From positions 1 to 24,845 of IMG/VR virus record IMGVR_UViG_3300022225_000004: DNA of 24,845 bases, one strand, 5' to 3'. The notes beneath the pieces are model-generated. The model saw only the letters and a list, made by a program, of their open reading frames with translations, searched no databases and was not told the DNA's origin. The stretch is from a virus. The translations under genes were made by a program, and so were the position numbers. Below, one piece after another: positions 5,346 to 24,845 of the stretch. The first letter of the stretch is position 1; each line of letters opens with the position of its first letter.

Positions 5346-6554
5346 TTATGCTAACTTACCTCTTACTGTTTGTTCGCCCTTCCATATTGCAGAAGTTTTA
5401 GAAAGTGAATATGCTGGCGTACTAAATTCAGCTGAATCTACACCTTCTATTTCTTGCTCAGGAGAAAGTCGAATACCTACTGTATACTTTAATCCTGCCC
5501 AAACAACAAAACACGACACAAAAACAAATGCACCAATAATAGATACACCTGTTAATTGGGTAGCAAAAGATACATCATCTTTAAATATTCCTACTGCTAA
5601 AGTACCCCAAACACCTGCAACTAGGTGAACCGATAGTGCTCCAACTGGGTCATCGATTTTGAATTTATCAAACATTGGAACGGCAACTAATACTAATAAT
5701 CCGCCTATCATGCCGATTGCCATTGCTAATTCCATTGTAGGATAATCAGGTCCTGCTGTAATGCTTACAAGTCCTGCTAACGCACCGTTAAGTACCATAG
5801 TTAAATCTACTCGTTTATAGATAAGTTGTGTTGCAATTAATGTTGTTAATGCACCAGCACAGGCGGCAATGTTTGTATTTGCAATAATTTGTGCTACCGC
5901 ATTTACATCTGCTATTGTGCCCATTGCTAACTGACTTCCGCCATTAAATCCAAACCAACCTAACCATAATATAAATGTACCCAATGTTGCTAATGGTAAA
6001 TTTGCTGGAGGTATTAAATTTGGTGAGCCATTTTCATTATAACGACCATGTCTTGCACCTAGTAAAATTGCACCTGCTAATGCACACCATCCACCTACGG
6101 AGTGTACAATAGTTGAGCCAGCGAAATCATTAAAACCCATTTCAGATAGCCATCCGCCGCCCCAGGTCCAATTACCTTGTAAAGGATAAATGATTGCTGA
6201 AAGTACTGCTACCATTCCCATAAAGGGCCAAAACTTAATACGTTCTGCAAGTGTTCCAGATACTATACTTGCCGCGGTTGCTACAAACACAACCTGAAAA
6301 AAGAAATCACTCATACCAGAATGATCTCCATCTGTTATGTTACCATACATAATTTGGTAACCAACTATATAAAACATAATACATGCTAAAGCATATAATG
6401 TTATATTTTTTGTTAAAATTGCTGTAGTATTTTTAGACCTTACTAATCCTGACTCTAGCATGGCAAAGCCTGCCGCCATCCACATAACTAGACAACCAGA
6501 AAAAATTAATAAAAAGGTGTTGAAAATATAAGCAACGTCTGTAAAATTTTCCAT
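5346..6554 (-). CDS. amtB: AmtB/Mep/Rh-family ammonium transporter
   Basis: A 402-residue polytopic membrane protein, the length of a mature bacterial AmtB, with about eleven membrane spans. The conserved elements are all present: D143 in FNDFAGSTIVH, the pore histidines H151 (STIVHSVGG) and H310 (GALSVHLVAGVWGT), and the aromatic gate region GWFGFNGGS. It moves ammonium or ammonia across the inner membrane. The C-terminal tail keeps RLSPEQEIEGVD, the region by which GlnK-type PII proteins block host AmtB. The ATG has a strong AGAGGAG site four bases upstream, and a late-type box lies about 50 bases upstream. The gene looks intact. Amt genes are known from a green-alga virus and from marine viral metagenomes, so it is an auxiliary nitrogen gene rather than a phage structural part. 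Confidence 0.96.
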   Translation of the reverse strand: MENFTDVAYIFNTFLLIFSGCLVMWMAAGFAMLESGLVRSKNTTAILTKNITLYALACIMFYIVGYQIMYGNITDGDHSGMSDFFFQVVFVATAASIVSGTLAERIKFWPFMGMVAVLSAIIYPLQGNWTWGGGWLSEMGFNDFAGSTIVHSVGGWCALAGAILLGARHGRYNENGSPNLIPPANLPLATLGTFILWLGWFGFNGGSQLAMGTIADVNAVAQIIANTNIAACAGALTTLIATQLIYKRVDLTMVLNGALAGLVSITAGPDYPTMELAMAIGMIGGLLVLVAVPMFDKFKIDDPVGALSVHLVAGVWGTLAVGIFKDDVSFATQLTGVSIIGAFVFVSCFVVWAGLKYTVGIRLSPEQEIEGVDSAEFSTPAYSLSKTSAIWKGEQTVRGKLA

Positions 6555-6860: not shown

Positions 6861-7078
6861 GTTCGTTCTTTTATAAGATGTTCAGCTTGATGCTCTGCAA
6901 GTTCATCAAGGTCTGTAAATGTTTCATCGCATTCAAAGCAACTAGCAAATCCATATTTCTTATAAAAGTTTTCCTCATCTATCATTTCTCGTGCTTGCTT
7001 TTGTAGTTCTGCTATTACGTCATTTATTCCATGTCCACCTGGGTAGACAGGAAATACCTTATTACTACTTTTTGGCAT
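6851..7078 (-). CDS. C2H2 zinc-finger miniprotein
   Basis: A 75-residue protein with one classical C2H2 finger near its C-terminus: CFEC, twelve residues, then HQAEH, i.e. C-x2-C-x12-H-x3-H. The linker has Phe and Leu at the places of the usual hydrophobic core (ETFTDLDEL). The finger and its flanks are acidic, which argues against simple DNA binding and for protein or RNA contact. The ATG overlaps the last base of the upstream synthetase-like gene, and its last ten bases overlap the class II tRNA. It is therefore probably translated from the same message as the synthetase-like gene and could assist it. The function is unknown. Confidence 0.75.
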   Translation of the reverse strand: MPKSSNKVFPVYPGGHGINDVIAELQKQAREMIDEENFYKKYGFASCFECDETFTDLDELAEHQAEHLIKERTLG

Positions 7079-7953
7079 TACATAAGCCCAGCTTTTTTCA
7101 TTCCAGCAATCAAGCGTGTCATTCCTATTCCTCCTCCAACCCTAGGTTTGAAGTCATGTGTCAAAAATTCAAAAAGTTCGTGTTCCACTCGTTCTTTACC
7201 AAACAAATCAAATAGTAATTGTGCATACCCACCATCTGAAATTGTATGGAATTGATGTTTCATTTCCTGTACATCAGTAGACCGTTCAGCACTACCAATG
7301 GTTTCCATGCCGCCAATAATAACATCGCATTTATTAGCAAGCAAGCCAGTTTTTTTCACATCCATTTCACCAAGTTTCATATTCCAGAAAGGACTTGTTG
7401 ATTCTGGAAAATGTGTCAGGAAAAATACATCTCCATATTCTTGATACATTTCTTCCTCATGGTGGGCATCTAATTCTGCACCAGTATATTTTGCTAATAC
7501 ACTTTGATACATGCCACCCGGAAAATCTAAATCTTTATATGGAGCCTTATTCCAATCACATTTAAATCCGAGATGTTTAAGTAAGTCGTTTTCTAATTTT
7601 AATAGATCATCGAAATTACCTGGCGCCTCAAATTCGAACATTGGAAAAATGAGTTCATGTCTACCTTCAACAGGATTCTGTTCTTGTCTGTAACTAGTGC
7701 TAAGACAATAACAACCTGCTATATCAGGTTTTGTAAGCAACTCGTATTCTAACCACATCTGTCCTGTTTGAGGTAATGGCCATATTTGACCATTATATTC
7801 GTAGGTTGCAACTGTGGTTGGATCTTCACAAGCCGCTAAAATACTAAGTCTATTTTGAGTGTGAACTTCTAAAAAATTTTTGGAGTCAAAAAAGGAACGA
7901 AGAAGTTTGACCGCAGTAGTGAATTCTGCTGGATCAATTAGTTGTGTAGTCAA
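7078..7953 (-). CDS. Class II aminoacyl-tRNA synthetase-like enzyme (AsnRS/AspRS-type catalytic domain)
   Basis: A 291-residue protein made of only a class II synthetase catalytic core of the Asp/Asn type. Motif 2 is seen at residues 88-109 (Y88-R89-x-E91, R98-H99, FPMFEFE) and motif 3 at 273-280 (GGGIGMTR with R280). The phrase GMETIGSAERS lies between them. There is no N-terminal OB-fold anticodon-binding domain, so it differs from true AsnRS (about 430-460 residues). Stand-alone relatives include archaeal asparagine synthetase (AS-AR), which makes Asn from Asp and ammonia with ATP. Inference: asparagine synthesis or amino-acid activation. The start is TTG with GGAG seven bases upstream; no in-frame ATG lies near. 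It is followed by the zinc-finger gene, the class II tRNA and amtB. Confidence 0.85.
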   Translation of the reverse strand: MTTQLIDPAEFTTAVKLLRSFFDSKNFLEVHTQNRLSILAACEDPTTVATYEYNGQIWPLPQTGQMWLEYELLTKPDIAGCYCLSTSYRQEQNPVEGRHELIFPMFEFEAPGNFDDLLKLENDLLKHLGFKCDWNKAPYKDLDFPGGMYQSVLAKYTGAELDAHHEEEMYQEYGDVFFLTHFPESTSPFWNMKLGEMDVKKTGLLANKCDVIIGGMETIGSAERSTDVQEMKHQFHTISDGGYAQLLFDLFGKERVEHELFEFLTHDFKPRVGGGIGMTRLIAGMKKAGLM

Positions 7954-8014: not shown

Positions 8015-8785
8015 TTAGGCAGTTAGTACCTCAACTCCACTTTCAGTAACCAGCAAAGTGTGTTCCCACTGAGCAGAAAGAGAACCATCAACAGTCACTG
8101 CGGTCCATCCGTCTGCTAGAATCCATATTTCCTGGCGCCCCATATTGATCATCGGTTCGATAGTGAACACCATTCCCTGACGAAGGATTTCTCCGTTACC
8201 TGCTGTTCCGTAATGTAAAATTTGTGGTGCTTCATGAAATTTGATACCTACTCCGTGACCACAAAAGTCTCGCACTACTGAATAATCTAAACTTTCAGCA
8301 TGAGACTGAATTGCATGACCAATATCTCCTGTTGTAGCTCCGGGTCGTACTTGTTCAATACCAAGTTCTAGACATTTACGTGTTTCTTTAACTAGGTTTA
8401 ATACAGAATCTGATACTTCTCCTATGATATACATCCGGCTCGCATCGCCAAAATATCCATTAAGATTATTAGTAACATCAACGTTAACGATATCCCCATT
8501 TTTTAGAATATATTCATTTGGGGTTCCGTGACAAATTACCTCATTAACTGAGGTACAAACACTTTTAGGAAAAGGCTCACCGTAAGGCCCTTTGCCGCGG
8601 CCATAGTTTAAAGGTGCAGGATAGGCGCCTTGGGCAAGGGTTTCATTATGAACCCATTCGTTGATTTGATTGGTTGTAATACCTTCAGTAATGCGTTCTT
8701 CAAGCATGTCAAGGATTTTACGTGTAAGCTGACTGCTTTTGCGGATTCCTTCTAGTTGTTCTTCGTTTTTGATGATTATTTGCAT
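8015..8785 (-). CDS. map: Methionine aminopeptidase type I
   Basis: A 256-residue cytosolic enzyme of the type Ia length, removing the start methionine from new proteins with small second residues. All five metal ligands are in place: D103 (VNVDV), D114 (GYFGDAS), H177 (CGHGVG), E210 (FTIEPM) and E241 (QWEHTLL). H86 in ICHG corresponds to the substrate histidine. No N-terminal zinc-finger extension is present. No good Shine-Dalgarno precedes the ATG, and a TATAAT sequence ends on it, so the start may be leaderless or weakly translated. Together with phage deformylases, such genes are taken to help virion and photosystem protein maturation in other marine phages; here the partner is not in the window. 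Confidence 0.96.
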   Translation of the reverse strand: MQIIIKNEEQLEGIRKSSQLTRKILDMLEERITEGITTNQINEWVHNETLAQGAYPAPLNYGRGKGPYGEPFPKSVCTSVNEVICHGTPNEYILKNGDIVNVDVTNNLNGYFGDASRMYIIGEVSDSVLNLVKETRKCLELGIEQVRPGATTGDIGHAIQSHAESLDYSVVRDFCGHGVGIKFHEAPQILHYGTAGNGEILRQGMVFTIEPMINMGRQEIWILADGWTAVTVDGSLSAQWEHTLLVTESGVEVLTA

Positions 8786-9358: not shown

Positions 9359-9570
9359 CTTTTAAATGACCGTTCCACTAACATAACTACCCCAATTGCT
9401 TTTTTGTATTCATCTATATTTTCATATAATGCATCAGCAAGCCCTGCTCGAATTTTCAATTCGCTTAAGGTAAATGACCATTCATCTATATTCGCAACAT
9501 ATTGCCATCGCATTACTGCTTTTACAGTTTTTCCATCGATAATAGTTCGTTGAAAGATAGGATCTTTCAT
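9355..9570 (-). CDS. Small protein of unknown function, possible paralogue of the 84-aa protein
   Basis: A 71-residue soluble protein, starting MKDPIFQRTIIDGKTVKAVM. The arrangement P-x-F-x-R-x3-D-x-K-T, then a Trp, a L-x3-L/R turn and a DEYKKAI helix is repeated in the 84-aa protein on the other side of the dehydrogenase gene (10623-10877). This suggests a duplication, although identity is low. It overlaps the dehydrogenase stop and the next ATG by four bases each, so it is tightly coupled within the operon. The function is unknown. Confidence 0.65.
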   Translation of the reverse strand: MKDPIFQRTIIDGKTVKAVMRWQYVANIDEWSFTLSELKIRAGLADALYENIDEYKKAIGVVMLVERSFKR

Positions 9571-10610
9571 AAAAATCTCTTTTCGGCTAAATCATTACAT
9601 ATTTTTATTGTTGTTTGATCTGTTTTTGCACTTTGATATAATACTTTAAAAACTGTATTAAATATAGAATCTAATCTATTTTTTACTATCGGACTTTCAT
9701 AATTTAAATCTATAAGTGTTTTATTTTGACTTTTTTCGACAATAATTACACCACCGCAATTTGCAAGATAGTCAGGTACATAAAAAATATTTTTCTCTTT
9801 AAGAAGCTCAGTAAGTTCATCTACTTCAAGTTGGTTATTTGCACCTCCAGCAATGCCTGCACATTTTAATTTTGGTATTGTTATTTGATTTAAAATTCCA
9901 CCAGTAGAACAAGGACTAAAAATATCACTTTCTACTTCATATATTTCATTTGGTTTAACAAACGATATATTTGCGAAATTTAACGAACCGTATTGATATT
10001 CTTCAAATACGTTAACATTTGTATCGGTAGCAATAACCTTTGCACCATCCTTAAGGCAAAAATCAATCAATCTTTTACCAACTTTACCTATTCCTTGAAC
10101 TGCAATTGTTTTATCTTTTAATGAATCAGTACCATGTAAAAATTTAATTAATGCTTTAATAGATTGGAACACTCCGTATGCGGTTGCAACCCCGCTATCT
10201 GTTTTACTCTTGTGTCCTAAGATAAAGTTTGTACTTTTTGCTATTTCTTTTAAATCGTGAATTGTAGTACCAATGTCACCAGATGTTATATATTTTCCAT
10301 AAAGATTGTTTACAAGGCCGGCAAATGCTTGCCAAAGTTCTGGACTTTTTTCAGGTAGAGCATTAACGGTTGCTTTGCCTCCGCCAAAATCTAAACCAGC
10401 TAAGGCATTTTTATAAGTCATACCTTTTGCAAGGCGCAATGTATCATTTAATTGTTCGTCATTAGTTTTATACGGATAATAACGACATCCGCCTACGGCT
10501 GGACCTAATTTGGTATTATGTATTGCTATATAAGCATCCAGCCCTGTTTTTTTATCAACTCCATGTACTACTTCTTCATACCCATCTATAGATATTTCTG
10601 TAATTATCAT
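9567..10610 (-). CDS. Leu/Phe/Val/Glu-type amino-acid dehydrogenase
   Basis: A 347-residue oxidoreductase of the Glu/Leu/Phe/Val dehydrogenase superfamily, close in length to leucine dehydrogenase (about 365). It interconverts an amino acid with its 2-keto acid and ammonium using NAD(P). The N-terminal domain has the substrate loop GPAVGGCR (36-43), K67 (MTYKNA), catalytic K79 (GGGKA) and D112 (TSGDIGTT). The Rossmann domain begins near residue 168 with TIAVQGIGKVG and IATDTN, suggesting NAD. The late CSTGG and AGGANNQL motifs are intact. Which amino acid it uses cannot be told. In the context of amtB and the AsnRS-like gene it is plausibly part of nitrogen assimilation or amino-acid breakdown. 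Confidence 0.92.
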   Translation of the reverse strand: MIITEISIDGYEEVVHGVDKKTGLDAYIAIHNTKLGPAVGGCRYYPYKTNDEQLNDTLRLAKGMTYKNALAGLDFGGGKATVNALPEKSPELWQAFAGLVNNLYGKYITSGDIGTTIHDLKEIAKSTNFILGHKSKTDSGVATAYGVFQSIKALIKFLHGTDSLKDKTIAVQGIGKVGKRLIDFCLKDGAKVIATDTNVNVFEEYQYGSLNFANISFVKPNEIYEVESDIFSPCSTGGILNQITIPKLKCAGIAGGANNQLEVDELTELLKEKNIFYVPDYLANCGGVIIVEKSQNKTLIDLNYESPIVKNRLDSIFNTVFKVLYQSAKTDQTTIKICNDLAEKRFL

Positions 10611-15439: not shown

Positions 15440-15766
15440 ATGCCAATATATGAATATAAATGTGAAGATTGTGGACATGAATTTGAAGAAATGCTTCATT
15501 TTTCAGAAAGAAATAATCCGTTAAATAATCAGTGTTCAATACGAATATTTGATCGTAATCATGAGCCTCAATGTTTTGATTGTAAAGGGAAAATACATTT
15601 AAAAATGAGTATGAGTTCCTTTCATTTAAAAGGTGGTGGTTGGTACAAAGATGGATATGAATCAAAACTAGAAAAGAAAGAAGAAAAGAAAGAAGAAAAG
15701 AAACCAGAGGCAAAGGATGATAAAAAACCGAAAGCAAAAGACGATACAAAGGCGAGTGTCGTATAA
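15440..15766 (+). CDS. FmdB-family zinc-ribbon protein with charged tail
   Basis: A 108-residue protein opening MPIYEYKCEDCGHEFEEM, the standard FmdB start. C8-x2-C11 and C45-x2-C48 supply four zinc ligands. The MSMSSFHLKGGGWYKDGY segment after the ribbon is the usual FmdB end. A tail of alternating Lys and Glu/Asp repeats (about residues 77-105) follows and is expected to be disordered. Family members are annotated as regulators but their role is uncertain. The gene starts one base after the upstream stop, and its last 15 bases form the 5' acceptor strand and D-arm of the Gly(TCC) tRNA sequence. Confidence 0.82.
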   Translation: MPIYEYKCEDCGHEFEEMLHFSERNNPLNNQCSIRIFDRNHEPQCFDCKGKIHLKMSMSSFHLKGGGWYKDGYESKLEKKEEKKEEKKPEAKDDKKPKAKDDTKASVV

Positions 15767-15825
15767 TGGTATTACCTTAGGCTTCCAACTTAAAGACGCA
15801 GGTTCGAATCCGGCCTGGGGAGCCA
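15752..15825 (+). tRNA. tRNA-Gly (TCC)-like, with mismatched acceptor stem
   Basis: The 5' half is a good Gly(TCC): acceptor strand GCGAGTG (identical to that of tRNA-Gly GCC), GTATAATGGTATTAC D-arm, and loop CTTCCAA with anticodon TCC. The 3' acceptor strand is CTGGGGA with discriminator G, which cannot pair with GCGAGTG and would not suit glycine. The last twelve bases match those of tRNA-Asn (16678-16689) at eleven positions. The T-stem also has one A-G mismatch. It is either a pseudogene or a recombinant tRNA. Confidence 0.6.
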
Positions 15826-16069: not shown

Positions 16070-16235
16070 GATTTGTTAGGTAAATGACACTAAAGCCAGG
16101 TCGGAGGGACGGACTCCTAATCCCTGAATGTGAATACGTGCTCTACCTAGATGAAGTTAAAACACCTCTCCAAAAAGACCCATAGTACGTGCATAGGGTT
16201 GAGGTTAGGTTAGTCTAGGCTCTGCCTAACAAATC
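16070..16235 (+). ncRNA. Candidate structured non-coding RNA, about 166 nt
   Basis: No credible frame exists in 16038-16245, but the sequence has strong pairing. GATTTGTTAGG (16070-16080) pairs perfectly with CCTAACAAATC (16225-16235), closing the whole element. Inside are a nested hairpin in which CAGG pairs with CCTG and GGAG with CTCC (about 16098-16126), a 6-bp helix CCTAGA (16146-16151) with TCTAGG (16214-16219), and a third arm with GACCC (16177-16181) and GGGTT (16196-16200), extended by CCTC/GAGG. A U-rich run (CTTTTATTATT) follows on the plus strand. It does not show tmRNA, SRP or RNase P signatures. It sits ten bases upstream of tRNA-Asp, so it may be processed from the tRNA transcript. 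Confidence 0.6.
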
Positions 16236-16245
16236 TTTTATTATT

Positions 16246-16322
16246 GGTCCCATCGTCTAGGCGGCCTAGGACACCGGCCTGTCACGCCGGCAACATGGGT
16301 TCGAATCCCATTGGGACCGCCA
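16246..16322 (+). tRNA. tRNA-Asp (GTC)
   Basis: Acceptor GGTCCCA/TGGGACC, anticodon loop CTGTCAC giving GTC with a strong CCGGC/GCCGG stem, T-loop TTCGAAT, discriminator G, encoded CCA. Confidence 0.96.
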
Positions 16323-18430: not shown

Positions 18431-18823
18431 ATGCCGGAACACAAGCATTTATTAATTAGAGCAGAAGTTAATAAACCTATTAAAGAAGAAAAAATACTTA
18501 AAAAATGGCTTAAAGATTTAGTTAAAAAAATTGATATGAAAATTATCAAAGGGCCATATATAGCATATGTATCTAAGGAAGGTAATAGAGGTATAACAGG
18601 TATTGTAGCAATAGAAACATCACATGTTGCAATTCATATATGGGACGAAGAAAGTCCTGCGTTAGTACAATTTGATGTATATTCTTGTGCTAATTTTTCA
18701 ACACACGAAGTTATAATGCATACAGCATTAATGGAACCAACAAAAGTAGAACATTTATTTATAAATAGAGGTAAGATTTTTGATATCGGTAATGTAAATA
18801 AATGGAGTATAACTAAGCCATAA
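18431..18823 (+). CDS. speD: S-adenosylmethionine decarboxylase-like proenzyme
   Basis: A 130-residue protein of the short prokaryotic AdoMetDC type, which self-cleaves to make a pyruvoyl group and decarboxylates SAM for spermidine synthesis. The core IETSHVAIHIWDEES contains S64 (future pyruvoyl), H65 and H69 at the spacing of the family's S63 and H68; C86 in DVYSCAN matches C83. The residue before the cleaved serine is Thr63, not the usual Glu, with Glu62 one place further back. SpeD is common in marine T4-like phages. GAGAGG precedes the ATG. Its 3' end overlaps the convergent membrane-protein gene by 11 bases. Confidence 0.88.
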   Translation: MPEHKHLLIRAEVNKPIKEEKILKKWLKDLVKKIDMKIIKGPYIAYVSKEGNRGITGIVAIETSHVAIHIWDEESPALVQFDVYSCANFSTHEVIMHTALMEPTKVEHLFINRGKIFDIGNVNKWSITKP

Positions 18824-22475: not shown

Positions 22476-24845
22476 ATGGCAACATTAGTATCACCAGGTG
22501 TGGCGGTATCAGTTATAGATGAAAGTTTCTATGGCTCTGCAGGAGCAGGAACGGTTCCGCTGATTATCGTTGCATCATCACAGGATAAAGCAGATGGCAC
22601 AGATTCAACTGCAACAGCAGGATATACTACTTCTGCTACAGCAATTAAACCTCATCTGATTACAAGTCAACGAGAACTGCTTCAACAATATGGTAAACCA
22701 TATTTTAAATCAGTATCAGGAACAGTTCAACAAGGTTATGAGACAAATGAATATGGTTTATTGGCGGCTTATTCATATTTAGGTGCCGCAAACAGAGCAT
22801 ATGTTATGAGGGCAGATGTTAATACATCACAATTAGAACCTTCTTCAACAGAACCAACAAGTGCTCCGCCTAACGGTGCATGGTGGTGGGACTTAGGAAA
22901 CACTACATTTGGTCTTTTTGAATATAAGCAAGTTAGTGTAGAATCAAGTGCATGGGTTGCACAAACAGTTACTATTCCAACTGCAACAGACACAGATATA
23001 GACGGCAGTGATCTTCCAAAAGCCGCATTTGGCAGTGACGGCGATTATGCCTTAGTACCATACGACGCGGCAGGAGTTCCTCTTACTGCACCTTCATATT
23101 ATAAAAAAGATGCTGGTGTATGGGCAACAGTAGAAAGCGGAAATTCAGGTATCACAGCAGTATGGGTTAGACCACACTATGATCCACCAGCCGCTCCAAA
23201 TATCGGCGATGTATGGATTAAATTAACTACTGCAAATAGTGGAATGAATATTTCTTATAAAGAATACAGTACAACATCAACTGCATGGGCTTCAAGAACA
23301 GTAGGCGTATTTGCAAGTGATGCAATGGCATGTATACCTGGTAATATTACCTCTGGTACACAAGCAACGGCAACAGCGGTAGCAGGAACAGGTGGTAGTG
23401 ATGCTTTGCAAACAGCAGATATCACACTCGTTGATGGTGGTTCTGGTTATACCGAAGCTCCAACAGTAGTAATAACCGATCCAAATGGTTCTTTAGCCGT
23501 TGCAACTGCAACAATAGGAACAAATGGTAAAGTAACCGGTGTTACAGTTACTACTCCTGGATCAGGCTATACAACGGCCGCAACTATTACATTTATTGGC
23601 GGCACACAACCTGCGGCAGATTCAGTTTACATTCGAAAAACTTCAGATGCTACAGCAGGCGGTGCCGGCGAAATACAATGGAATGGCGGAACAACCCATG
23701 TAGCAGGAACAGAAGAAACAATAGCATTCTATGTATTTCCAGGATCAAGTGCAACTTCGGCGGCGTTAGGTGCCGCATCAGTGCCGATTGCATTAAATGC
23801 AGACGGAACAACACCAACTGCTGACAAGGTAATTCATGCATCAAGTGCCCCAACCGCAGTAGCAACCGATGGTACTTATTGGTATGATACTACTCTTGCA
23901 TTAGACATATATAAAAAAGCATCAGGTGCATGGCAAAAACAAGCAGTTTCTAAATATGGAACAACTGCTCCGGCCGGTCCTAGTGATGGTGATGTGTGGA
24001 TAGACACCAACGATTTAGATAATTATCCTGTTATAAAAGTTTATGATAGTGCAAATGCAATATGGACTACAAAAGATAATACAGACCAATCTACTGCTGA
24101 TGGAGTAGTTTTTGCAGATTTAACACCAGATACAGGTGTTACAGCAGGACAAAGTCCTACTAATTTTTATAGTGGATACCCAAATCCAGCAATTTATCCA
24201 GATGGTATGTTTGCTGTTAATGGAGCAAGAAGTTCTTATCATGTACGAAAATATGATGAAAATGCAACATTATCAACAAGTGCCGCGGCGGCATGGAAAT
24301 GGGTTACAGCCGCAGGTAATAAAGCAAATGGTGCCGGATTATATGGCAGAAAAAGTCAAAGAAAAGTTGTTACTACAGCGATGCAGGCCGCATTAACCTC
24401 ATGTGTAGCAATAAGAGAAGAGTCGTATACATTTTCAATTATTGCATCTCCGGGTTATCCTGAGTTAGCAGATGAAATGAATACATTAGCAACAGATAGA
24501 AAAAATACAGCATTTGTTGTTATTGATCCTCCTTTCAGACTTGCAACATCAGGTGTAGCAAGTTGGATGCTAGGTACAAGTACTACAGAAAATGGTGAAG
24601 ATGGATTAGTAAGTAAAACAGCATATTCTGCTGTTTATTATCCTAGTGCATATACTACCGATTTAGATGGTAATACTGTAACATGTCCAGCATCACATAT
24701 TGCATTAAGAACATTTGCATATAATGATGATATTGCGTATCCGTGGTTTGCTCCGGCAGGCTTAACACGTGGTGTCATTGCTAATGCTACAAATATTGGA
24801 TACTTGGATTCAGAAGACGAGTTTGTACCAGTGGCATTAAGTGGT
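22476..24845 (+). CDS. 18: Tail sheath protein gp18, 3' end missing
   Basis: The frame is open for 790 codons to the right edge. It begins MATLVSPGVAVSVIDESFYG and has the sheath features PLIIVASSQDK, AAYSYLGAANRAYVMRADVN and, after residue 600, SFSIIASPGYPE-type and FVVIDPPFR segments (here TFSIIASPGYPELADEMN). gp18 forms the contractile sheath that drives tail contraction. T4 gp18 is 659 residues; this one is longer because of insertions at about residues 140-540. They include two GSGYT-type repeats (about 320 and 360) and three modules ending in an aromatic (DVWIKLT, GTYWYDT, DVWIDTN) that look like surface decorations. Confidence 0.92.
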   Translation, partial: MATLVSPGVAVSVIDESFYGSAGAGTVPLIIVASSQDKADGTDSTATAGYTTSATAIKPHLITSQRELLQQYGKPYFKSVSGTVQQGYETNEYGLLAAYSYLGAANRAYVMRADVNTSQLEPSSTEPTSAPPNGAWWWDLGNTTFGLFEYKQVSVESSAWVAQTVTIPTATDTDIDGSDLPKAAFGSDGDYALVPYDAAGVPLTAPSYYKKDAGVWATVESGNSGITAVWVRPHYDPPAAPNIGDVWIKLTTANSGMNISYKEYSTTSTAWASRTVGVFASDAMACIPGNITSGTQATATAVAGTGGSDALQTADITLVDGGSGYTEAPTVVITDPNGSLAVATATIGTNGKVTGVTVTTPGSGYTTAATITFIGGTQPAADSVYIRKTSDATAGGAGEIQWNGGTTHVAGTEETIAFYVFPGSSATSAALGAASVPIALNADGTTPTADKVIHASSAPTAVATDGTYWYDTTLALDIYKKASGAWQKQAVSKYGTTAPAGPSDGDVWIDTNDLDNYPVIKVYDSANAIWTTKDNTDQSTADGVVFADLTPDTGVTAGQSPTNFYSGYPNPAIYPDGMFAVNGARSSYHVRKYDENATLSTSAAAAWKWVTAAGNKANGAGLYGRKSQRKVVTTAMQAALTSCVAIREESYTFSIIASPGYPELADEMNTLATDRKNTAFVVIDPPFRLATSGVASWMLGTSTTENGEDGLVSKTAYSAVYYPSAYTTDLDGNTVTCPASHIALRTFAYNDDIAYPWFAPAGLTRGVIANATNIGYLDSEDEFVPVALSG

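Follow-up and report, generated by a model that had tools for sequence, protein, structure and literature searches.

A marine phage RNA family with a three-way-junction fold and a contact between arm tips, both supported by covariation

The window analyzed here is a whole stretch of viral DNA of 24,845 nucleotides (positions 1 to 24,845 of IMG/VR record IMGVR_UViG_3300022225_000004), and the element that concerns us lies among its tRNA genes at 16070-16235, on the + strand. The initial annotation, made from the letters alone, had described this region as a structured non-coding RNA of known or new class within a tRNA array. Direct reading agrees with the parts that it listed. The closing stem has 11 perfect base pairs, formed by GATTTGTTAGG (16070-16080) with CCTAACAAATC (16225-16235), and a twelfth pair is T16081-G16224; GGAG-GGACGGA-CTCC forms the nested hairpin (16103-16117); the 6-bp long-range helix, CCTAGA/TCTAGG, joins 16146-16151 to 16214-16219; the third arm corresponds to the P5-P6 stem within that helix; ACGTGC does occur twice, at 16136 and 16187; and the U-rich run TCTTTTATTATT (16234-16245) is present directly 5' of a tRNA-Asp gene that begins at 16246. 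On the same strand, a Rfam tRNA match at 15758-15815 (36 bits, model positions 7-64) is missed by ARAGORN and overlaps the end of the ORF at 15440-15766. Elsewhere, the window encodes a phage-borne ammonium transporter (5346-6554, - strand; PF00909, E 4e-96), a class II aminoacyl-tRNA-synthetase-like protein (7078-7953), an M24 peptidase (8015-8785), a Glu/Leu dehydrogenase (9567-10610), and an AdoMet decarboxylase (18431-18823).

When folded alone, the window copy is only mildly better than its shuffled versions (-48.1 kcal/mol and z -2.0 on the + strand, with 8 of 200 shuffles equally good; z -2.65 on the opposite strand, with 3 of 200 equally good), and comparison with relatives was therefore needed. 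These relatives were found by means of DNA patterns in IMG/VR, and 22 short forms (alignment A1) served to build a covariance model, R1. Across 140 sources (the window and L002-L140), R1 gives 46 convincing ones, that is, the window and 45 IMG/VR contigs, with 48 places. The 41 distinct versions in alignment A2 include two that run off a contig end (L005 and the type II copy of L032, discussed below); L071, an R1 match also cut by a contig end, was left out of it. Complete elements are about 159-225 nt long and fall into two size classes: short forms of about 160 nt, which measure 159, 160, 161, 163, 164 or 165 nt when cut at the same two points, and long forms of 206-225 nt in which an extra arm is inserted in P5. 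Measured against the window's element, type I copies have identities of 64-93%. The RNA copies of the window and L002 are 93% identical over 164 nt. Outside the RNA, the window and the 5.4-kb L002 match in just one stretch, at 72% identity, a contrast that speaks for constraint on the RNA. Within the window, R1 matches 16072-16234 with 179.6 bits, the closing stem being extendable to 16070-16235; with filters off this is the sole convincing copy, the runner-up match scoring 8.1 bits, and R1 detects no second copy of the element.

The alignments show a fold organized as a three-way junction, in which the closing stem P1 meets an arm composed of P2, P3 and P3b and a second arm composed of P4, P5 and P6. 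In the window copy, P1 pairs 16074-16080 with the covarying strand 16225-16231, and both-side changes are seen at six of its seven pairs. The P2 5' strand GACAC (16086-16090) covaries with its partner within the 3' strand GTGCTC (16138-16143), which overlaps the first of the two ACGTGC sequences. P3, in which GCCAGG pairs with CCTGAATGT (16095-16131; alignments A1 and A2), encloses the P3b hairpin at 16103-16117, which has both-side changes at three of its four stem pairs and a 7-nt loop at 16107-16113. On the other side of the junction, P4 pairs CCTAGAT (16146-16152) with the covarying strand GTCTAGG (16213-16219), with both-side changes at six of seven pairs in the full set. P5 pairs 16165-16171 with 16203-16209, with two mismatches in the window copy, and TACGTG (16186-16191) is the apical loop of the P6 hairpin (16179-16198). 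P4 and P5 are joined by an unpaired strand, GAAGTTAA... (16153-16164), which is near-invariant in alignments A1 and A3 and reads GAAATTTAAG in the type II copies. The three-way junction is closed by the strand CTCTG (16220-16224); with its preceding base this strand is GCTCTG, close to the GCTCTA found 5' of P4. Strong conservation of unpaired bases is seen in three internal loops as well as at the junction, as would be expected of an active core or of a surface for binding.

Support for this fold is provided by paired changes. Standard pairs make up 94.5% of cells in A1, and 17 of the 40 pairs show changes on both sides, a number reached by none of 500 shuffles (mean 8.3). The corresponding values for A2 are 91.3% of cells paired and both-side changes at 30 of 40 pairs, again reached by none of 500 shuffles (mean 14.7). 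A2 was fitted to the model, which favors the structure, and A1 was not fitted, although the structure was drawn up on A1. When the 3' partners are shifted by one to three columns, only 26-46% of cells remain paired, and far fewer pairs have both-side changes. Moreover, a count along a tree gives 62 branch-level double changes, or 79 when the tree is made from unpaired columns only, compared to 0-2 for pairings shifted by one or two columns. Compensatory changes are located in P1, P2, P3b, P4 and P5; in P2, for example, 14 of 22 sequences have CAC/GUG and 8 have CUC/GAG, and the closing stem appears as GUUAGG/CCUAAC, GUUGGG/CCCAAC, GUUGAG/CUCAAC and UACUGGG/CCCAGUA. The weaker parts are P5, with 71% of cells paired in A2, and inner P6, with 73%; for the R1 family as a whole, P1-P6 are found with compensatory changes, inner P5 and inner P6 being weak. 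The + strand is favored as the RNA because paired columns hold 97 G-U pairs versus 24 A-C mismatches, with the opposite trend in P2 (one G-U, six A-C) and P6 (one G-U, nine A-C). The checks that the initial annotation had proposed, namely cmscan, a covariance model and a search for compensatory changes in the closing stem, were thus run and passed, and its reading of the region as a structured non-coding RNA is borne out by a conserved, covarying fold across relatives. Comparative analysis confirms that 16070-16235 encodes a conserved structured RNA rather than a decayed tRNA or gene.

The alignments also point to a contact between the two arm tips, which covariation shows to kiss through ACG of the P3b loop (16109-16111) and CGU of the P6 loop (16188-16190). 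In the loops themselves, GGACGGA supplies the ACG and UACGUG the CGU, and each of the three positions is paired in every one of the 22 short forms. Among non-nested column pairs that are at least 93% complementary, the P3b-P6 loops rank first by corrected mutual information; among all pairs they rank 29th by mutual information, and many non-nested column pairs score higher yet are not complementary. In L086 and L100, the A-U pair is replaced by G-C to give GCG/CGC, and the P6 loop, which is ACGU in nearly all type I copies, becomes CGCG. L086 differs from its sister L018, which keeps ACG/CGU, by A to G and U to C, and since the two are 92.5% identical, the short branch between them holds changes on both sides of the contact. 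In type II, the contact is rebuilt as GUAG/CUAC in each of the two copies. The type I kissing helix has only three base pairs, two of which never vary, and in a three-pair shuffle test 4 of 500 shuffles reach the score and 74 of 500 reach the number of changed pairs. P3b loop-P6 loop kissing is found as a feature of the R1 family. The initial annotation had proposed a loop-loop contact between the two ACGT copies; its second loop was right, and the partner is instead the GGACGGA loop. The first ACGT is not conserved: ACGTG is present in the first region of only 10 of 40 distinct elements (in 8 of these, judged by eye, at the aligned position), and the stretch that holds it in the window overlaps the P2 3' strand. 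Covariation would fit kissing within one molecule and kissing between molecules alike, and cannot tell the two apart.

A divergent, type II element is present at L007:4932-5130, where R1 scores it at 31 bits, 36 nt after a type I copy. A second type II copy, in the record of L032 (G012, L162), scores 23 bits and is cut by the contig end. Both of the type II copies found are in records that also carry type I, and both keep the P1 and P2 5' strands, the 7-nt hairpin loop and GAAAUUUAAG. In L007 the type II P4 is written in different letters (CUCUGG/CCAGAG) and is flanked on both sides by GCUCUAC, and an unconstrained fold recovers P1, P4 and P5. These features show type II to be, as far as can be judged from two copies, a divergent paralogue with the same plan as type I. 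No further type II copies were found in the 23 records searched, and a viral pattern scan directed at type II, in which a pattern gap was miscounted, gave four matches, none of which matches R1.

We compared 44 genomic contexts, a few of which are duplicates of one locus, with gene family names being taken from single scanned members. The initial annotation had tied the element to tRNA arrays, a link that does not extend to the family, since only 8 of the 44 contexts lie within 12 nt of a tRNA called by ARAGORN and the other 36 do not. By eye, a tRNA-Tyr-like sequence that ARAGORN does not call is seen about 8-15 nt 3' of the RNA in L003, L004 and L009. Gene c2 is directly downstream in 15 of the 44, with the gp45 clamp gene behind c2 in most, and a staphylococcal-nuclease-like gene is downstream in 9 of the 44, either immediately or with one or two small ORFs in between; c2 and c5 have no Pfam match over the cut-off. 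A SET-domain gene precedes the RNA in five contexts, including L002, which is also among the 15 with c2. These five loci have a perfect TTGACA-N17-TATAAT sigma-70 promoter 46 nt upstream, which none of 100 shuffles of each matches; because one gene context is common to all of them, they count as one case. Most copies are without a standout promoter, and for the region upstream of the element in the window 89 of 100 shuffles are as good.

A T4-type DNA polymerase is found in 8 of 17 records: that of the carrier used as the query, two at 93-94% identity to it and five at 46-49%. The fact that type I copies are 64-93% identical to that of the window, although the polymerases of five carriers have only 46-49% identity to that of another carrier, implies either strong constraint or movement between phages. 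The tail sheath gene of the window (22476-24845, + strand) is of the jumbo-phage type, with 41% identity to that of PA5oct. Two close relatives of the window, L021 and L096, align over the tail sheath region at 93%, and a tail sheath of this type was not found in 15 other RNA-carrying records. Other carriers have cyanophage or T4-type replication genes, unlike the jumbo-type tail sheath of the window.

The statement that the element matches none of the common RNAs holds for Rfam 15, in which no family exceeds its gathering threshold; the IMES motifs are included in Rfam. A search of the whole window returns tRNAs only, a 341-base search around the element with E up to 10 returns nothing for it, six further loci, five of which carry the RNA, give no match falling on it, and loci with divergent members give only tRNAs over threshold. 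Matches below threshold are chance ones that lie off the element. ARAGORN and RF00005 call no tRNA or tmRNA over it. Blastn against 50,697 phage records gives no homologue, only short chance matches or none, and R1 has no match in HTVC008M, in PA5oct or in two single-cell virus records; in S-BM3, a match of 15 bits was rejected, as it falls within coding sequence. In 385 bacterial genomes of the class of G035, searched without a positive control, R1 gives no match, and 10 pattern matches in bacterial genome contigs look unrelated, none of them matching R1. Descriptions of the element in the open-licence literature were absent among the matches listed. In addition, the element contains words that we take to be RNase P look-alikes, such as GGAUAGUCUAGGC and UAGAUGAA, and because these suggested RNase P we tested the idea of a permuted form. 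Linear bacterial RNase P RNA (RF00010) has no match in the window with E up to 10. For circularly permuted forms, none of 42 doubled elements matches an RNase P profile, and the reverse search gives none of nine; this profile describes sequence rather than structure, recovers all nine RNase P sequences from which it was made, and matched 4 of 420 shuffles with scores below 0. The set left out L005 and L162 (cut by contig ends), the RNase P locus L178 (short flank) and the type II copy of L007.

Several named systems occupy a similar niche. T4 rnaC and rnaD (species 1 and 2), of 139 and 119 nt, lie next to T4 tRNA genes and are annotated as small stable RNAs with no stated function. With filters off, R1 scores at most 7.1 bits in the 3-kb stretch that holds them, the best match being 31 nt on the opposite strand, and rnaC has by eye a T-arm-like 3' end that the new family lacks. 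At E up to 1, rnaC and rnaD (L190:409-672) have no Rfam 15 match of their own. GOLLD and ROOL are described in PMC12286853 as phage-encoded structured RNAs of unknown function with kissing loops, often near tRNA islands of phages and prophages; the symmetric kissing loops of OLE and GOLLD are reported there to switch between palindromes. The element resembles GOLLD and ROOL in niche and in its kissing loop. These RNAs are much longer, many GOLLD exceeding 800 nt, and differ in fold; Rfam has profiles for both, and the element matches neither. The structured RNAs manA, wcaG and PhotoRC-II from marine samples, which also occur in cyanophages, are presented in PMC2864571 as tied to particular genes, with Rfam numbers given. 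None of the three is matched by the element. On the evidence of its sequence, the element is best described as a new orphan phage RNA family in a niche like that of T4 RNAs C and D, GOLLD and ROOL, and a member of none of them.

What such an RNA might do can be considered in the light of its neighbors. Varied lengths and paired changes disfavor a coding role, and the occurrence of the RNA in several unrelated gene contexts suggests that it may act in trans, as does the promoter upstream of the five loci with a SET-domain gene; because the neighboring genes differ, they give no clue to a partner. We propose that the element is a gene for a phage small RNA that acts as a folded RNA and not as a message. 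In the window, it would be co-transcribed with the flanking tRNAs and released by cutting of tRNA ends, tRNA-Asp starting 12 nt downstream; in some other phages, a promoter of its own would drive it. In the course of infection, the closed and stapled fold might then offer its conserved loops for contact with a partner. A protein of RNA metabolism or translation, whether of the host or of the phage, would be the likeliest candidate, and the RNA would act in trans as a scaffold or inhibitor. The most likely function, we infer, would be that of a scaffold for a protein partner. Our confidence in this explanation as a whole, with all of its mechanistic steps, is evenly balanced. A bolder proposal, that types I and II, present together in at least two virus records, represent an unseen class of compact, tertiary-stapled RNA that works as an RNA machine (a ribozyme, an RNA-only complex or an RNA-protein complex) in infections by uncultured phages, is speculative, and we regard it as rather unlikely.

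Alternative explanations share parts of this evidence. Assembly of RNA alone, through swapped P3b-P6 kissing or the palindromic ACGU loop in the manner of GOLLD, ROOL and OLE, would suit the ACGU and CGCG loops of P6 and draws on the palindrome switching and the tRNA-island setting described above for those RNAs; we consider it distinctly unlikely, given that covariation links the P6 loop to the P3b loop, which would be needless for a P6-P6 dimer, and that GOLLD has about five times the size of the element. Slightly less probable again is a riboswitch or leader that controls the downstream gene in cis. Purine riboswitches, like the element, have a closing stem, a three-way junction and two arms with kissing loops, and this likeness, together with the position of 15 of 44 copies directly 5' of c2 and mostly upstream of gp45, is what speaks for a cis-acting role. 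The likeness is one of architecture only, since the arms of the element are much longer, Rfam gives no match and the downstream gene is inconsistent; a cis switch is disfavored by these differing neighbors, which in other copies are tRNAs, the nuclease-like gene or unrelated ORFs, and a separate RNA would agree with the L002-like promoter and with the U-run that follows P1. We assign the same slim chance to a catalytic RNA, that is, a self- or trans-cleaving ribozyme that might, for example, process the tRNA transcript: the compact fold, the tertiary staple and the many conserved unpaired bases would be in keeping with catalysis, whereas no Rfam ribozyme matches and the permuted RNase P searches were negative in both directions. 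The notion of a decayed tRNA, tmRNA or gene remnant, which the initial annotation had named, for a tRNA or gene, as one of the findings that would overturn its claim, derives its appeal from the tRNA genes that surround the element in the window; this notion is ruled out for practical purposes by compensatory changes over 41 distinct versions, by the 36 contexts away from tRNAs and by the absence of any tRNA or tmRNA call over the element, leaving it a vanishingly small probability.

The family adds an orphan RNA to the T4-type phages, for which RNAs C and D of T4 are already annotated. Moreover, it has a covariation-supported fold and a defined tertiary contact, and its covariance model can be used on transcriptomes, so that expression, partner and function become directly testable. 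A weak full-length R1 match (16.7 bits, E 0.27) is also seen at L043:2801-2909, on the - strand of contig IMGVR_UViG_2645727660_000001.
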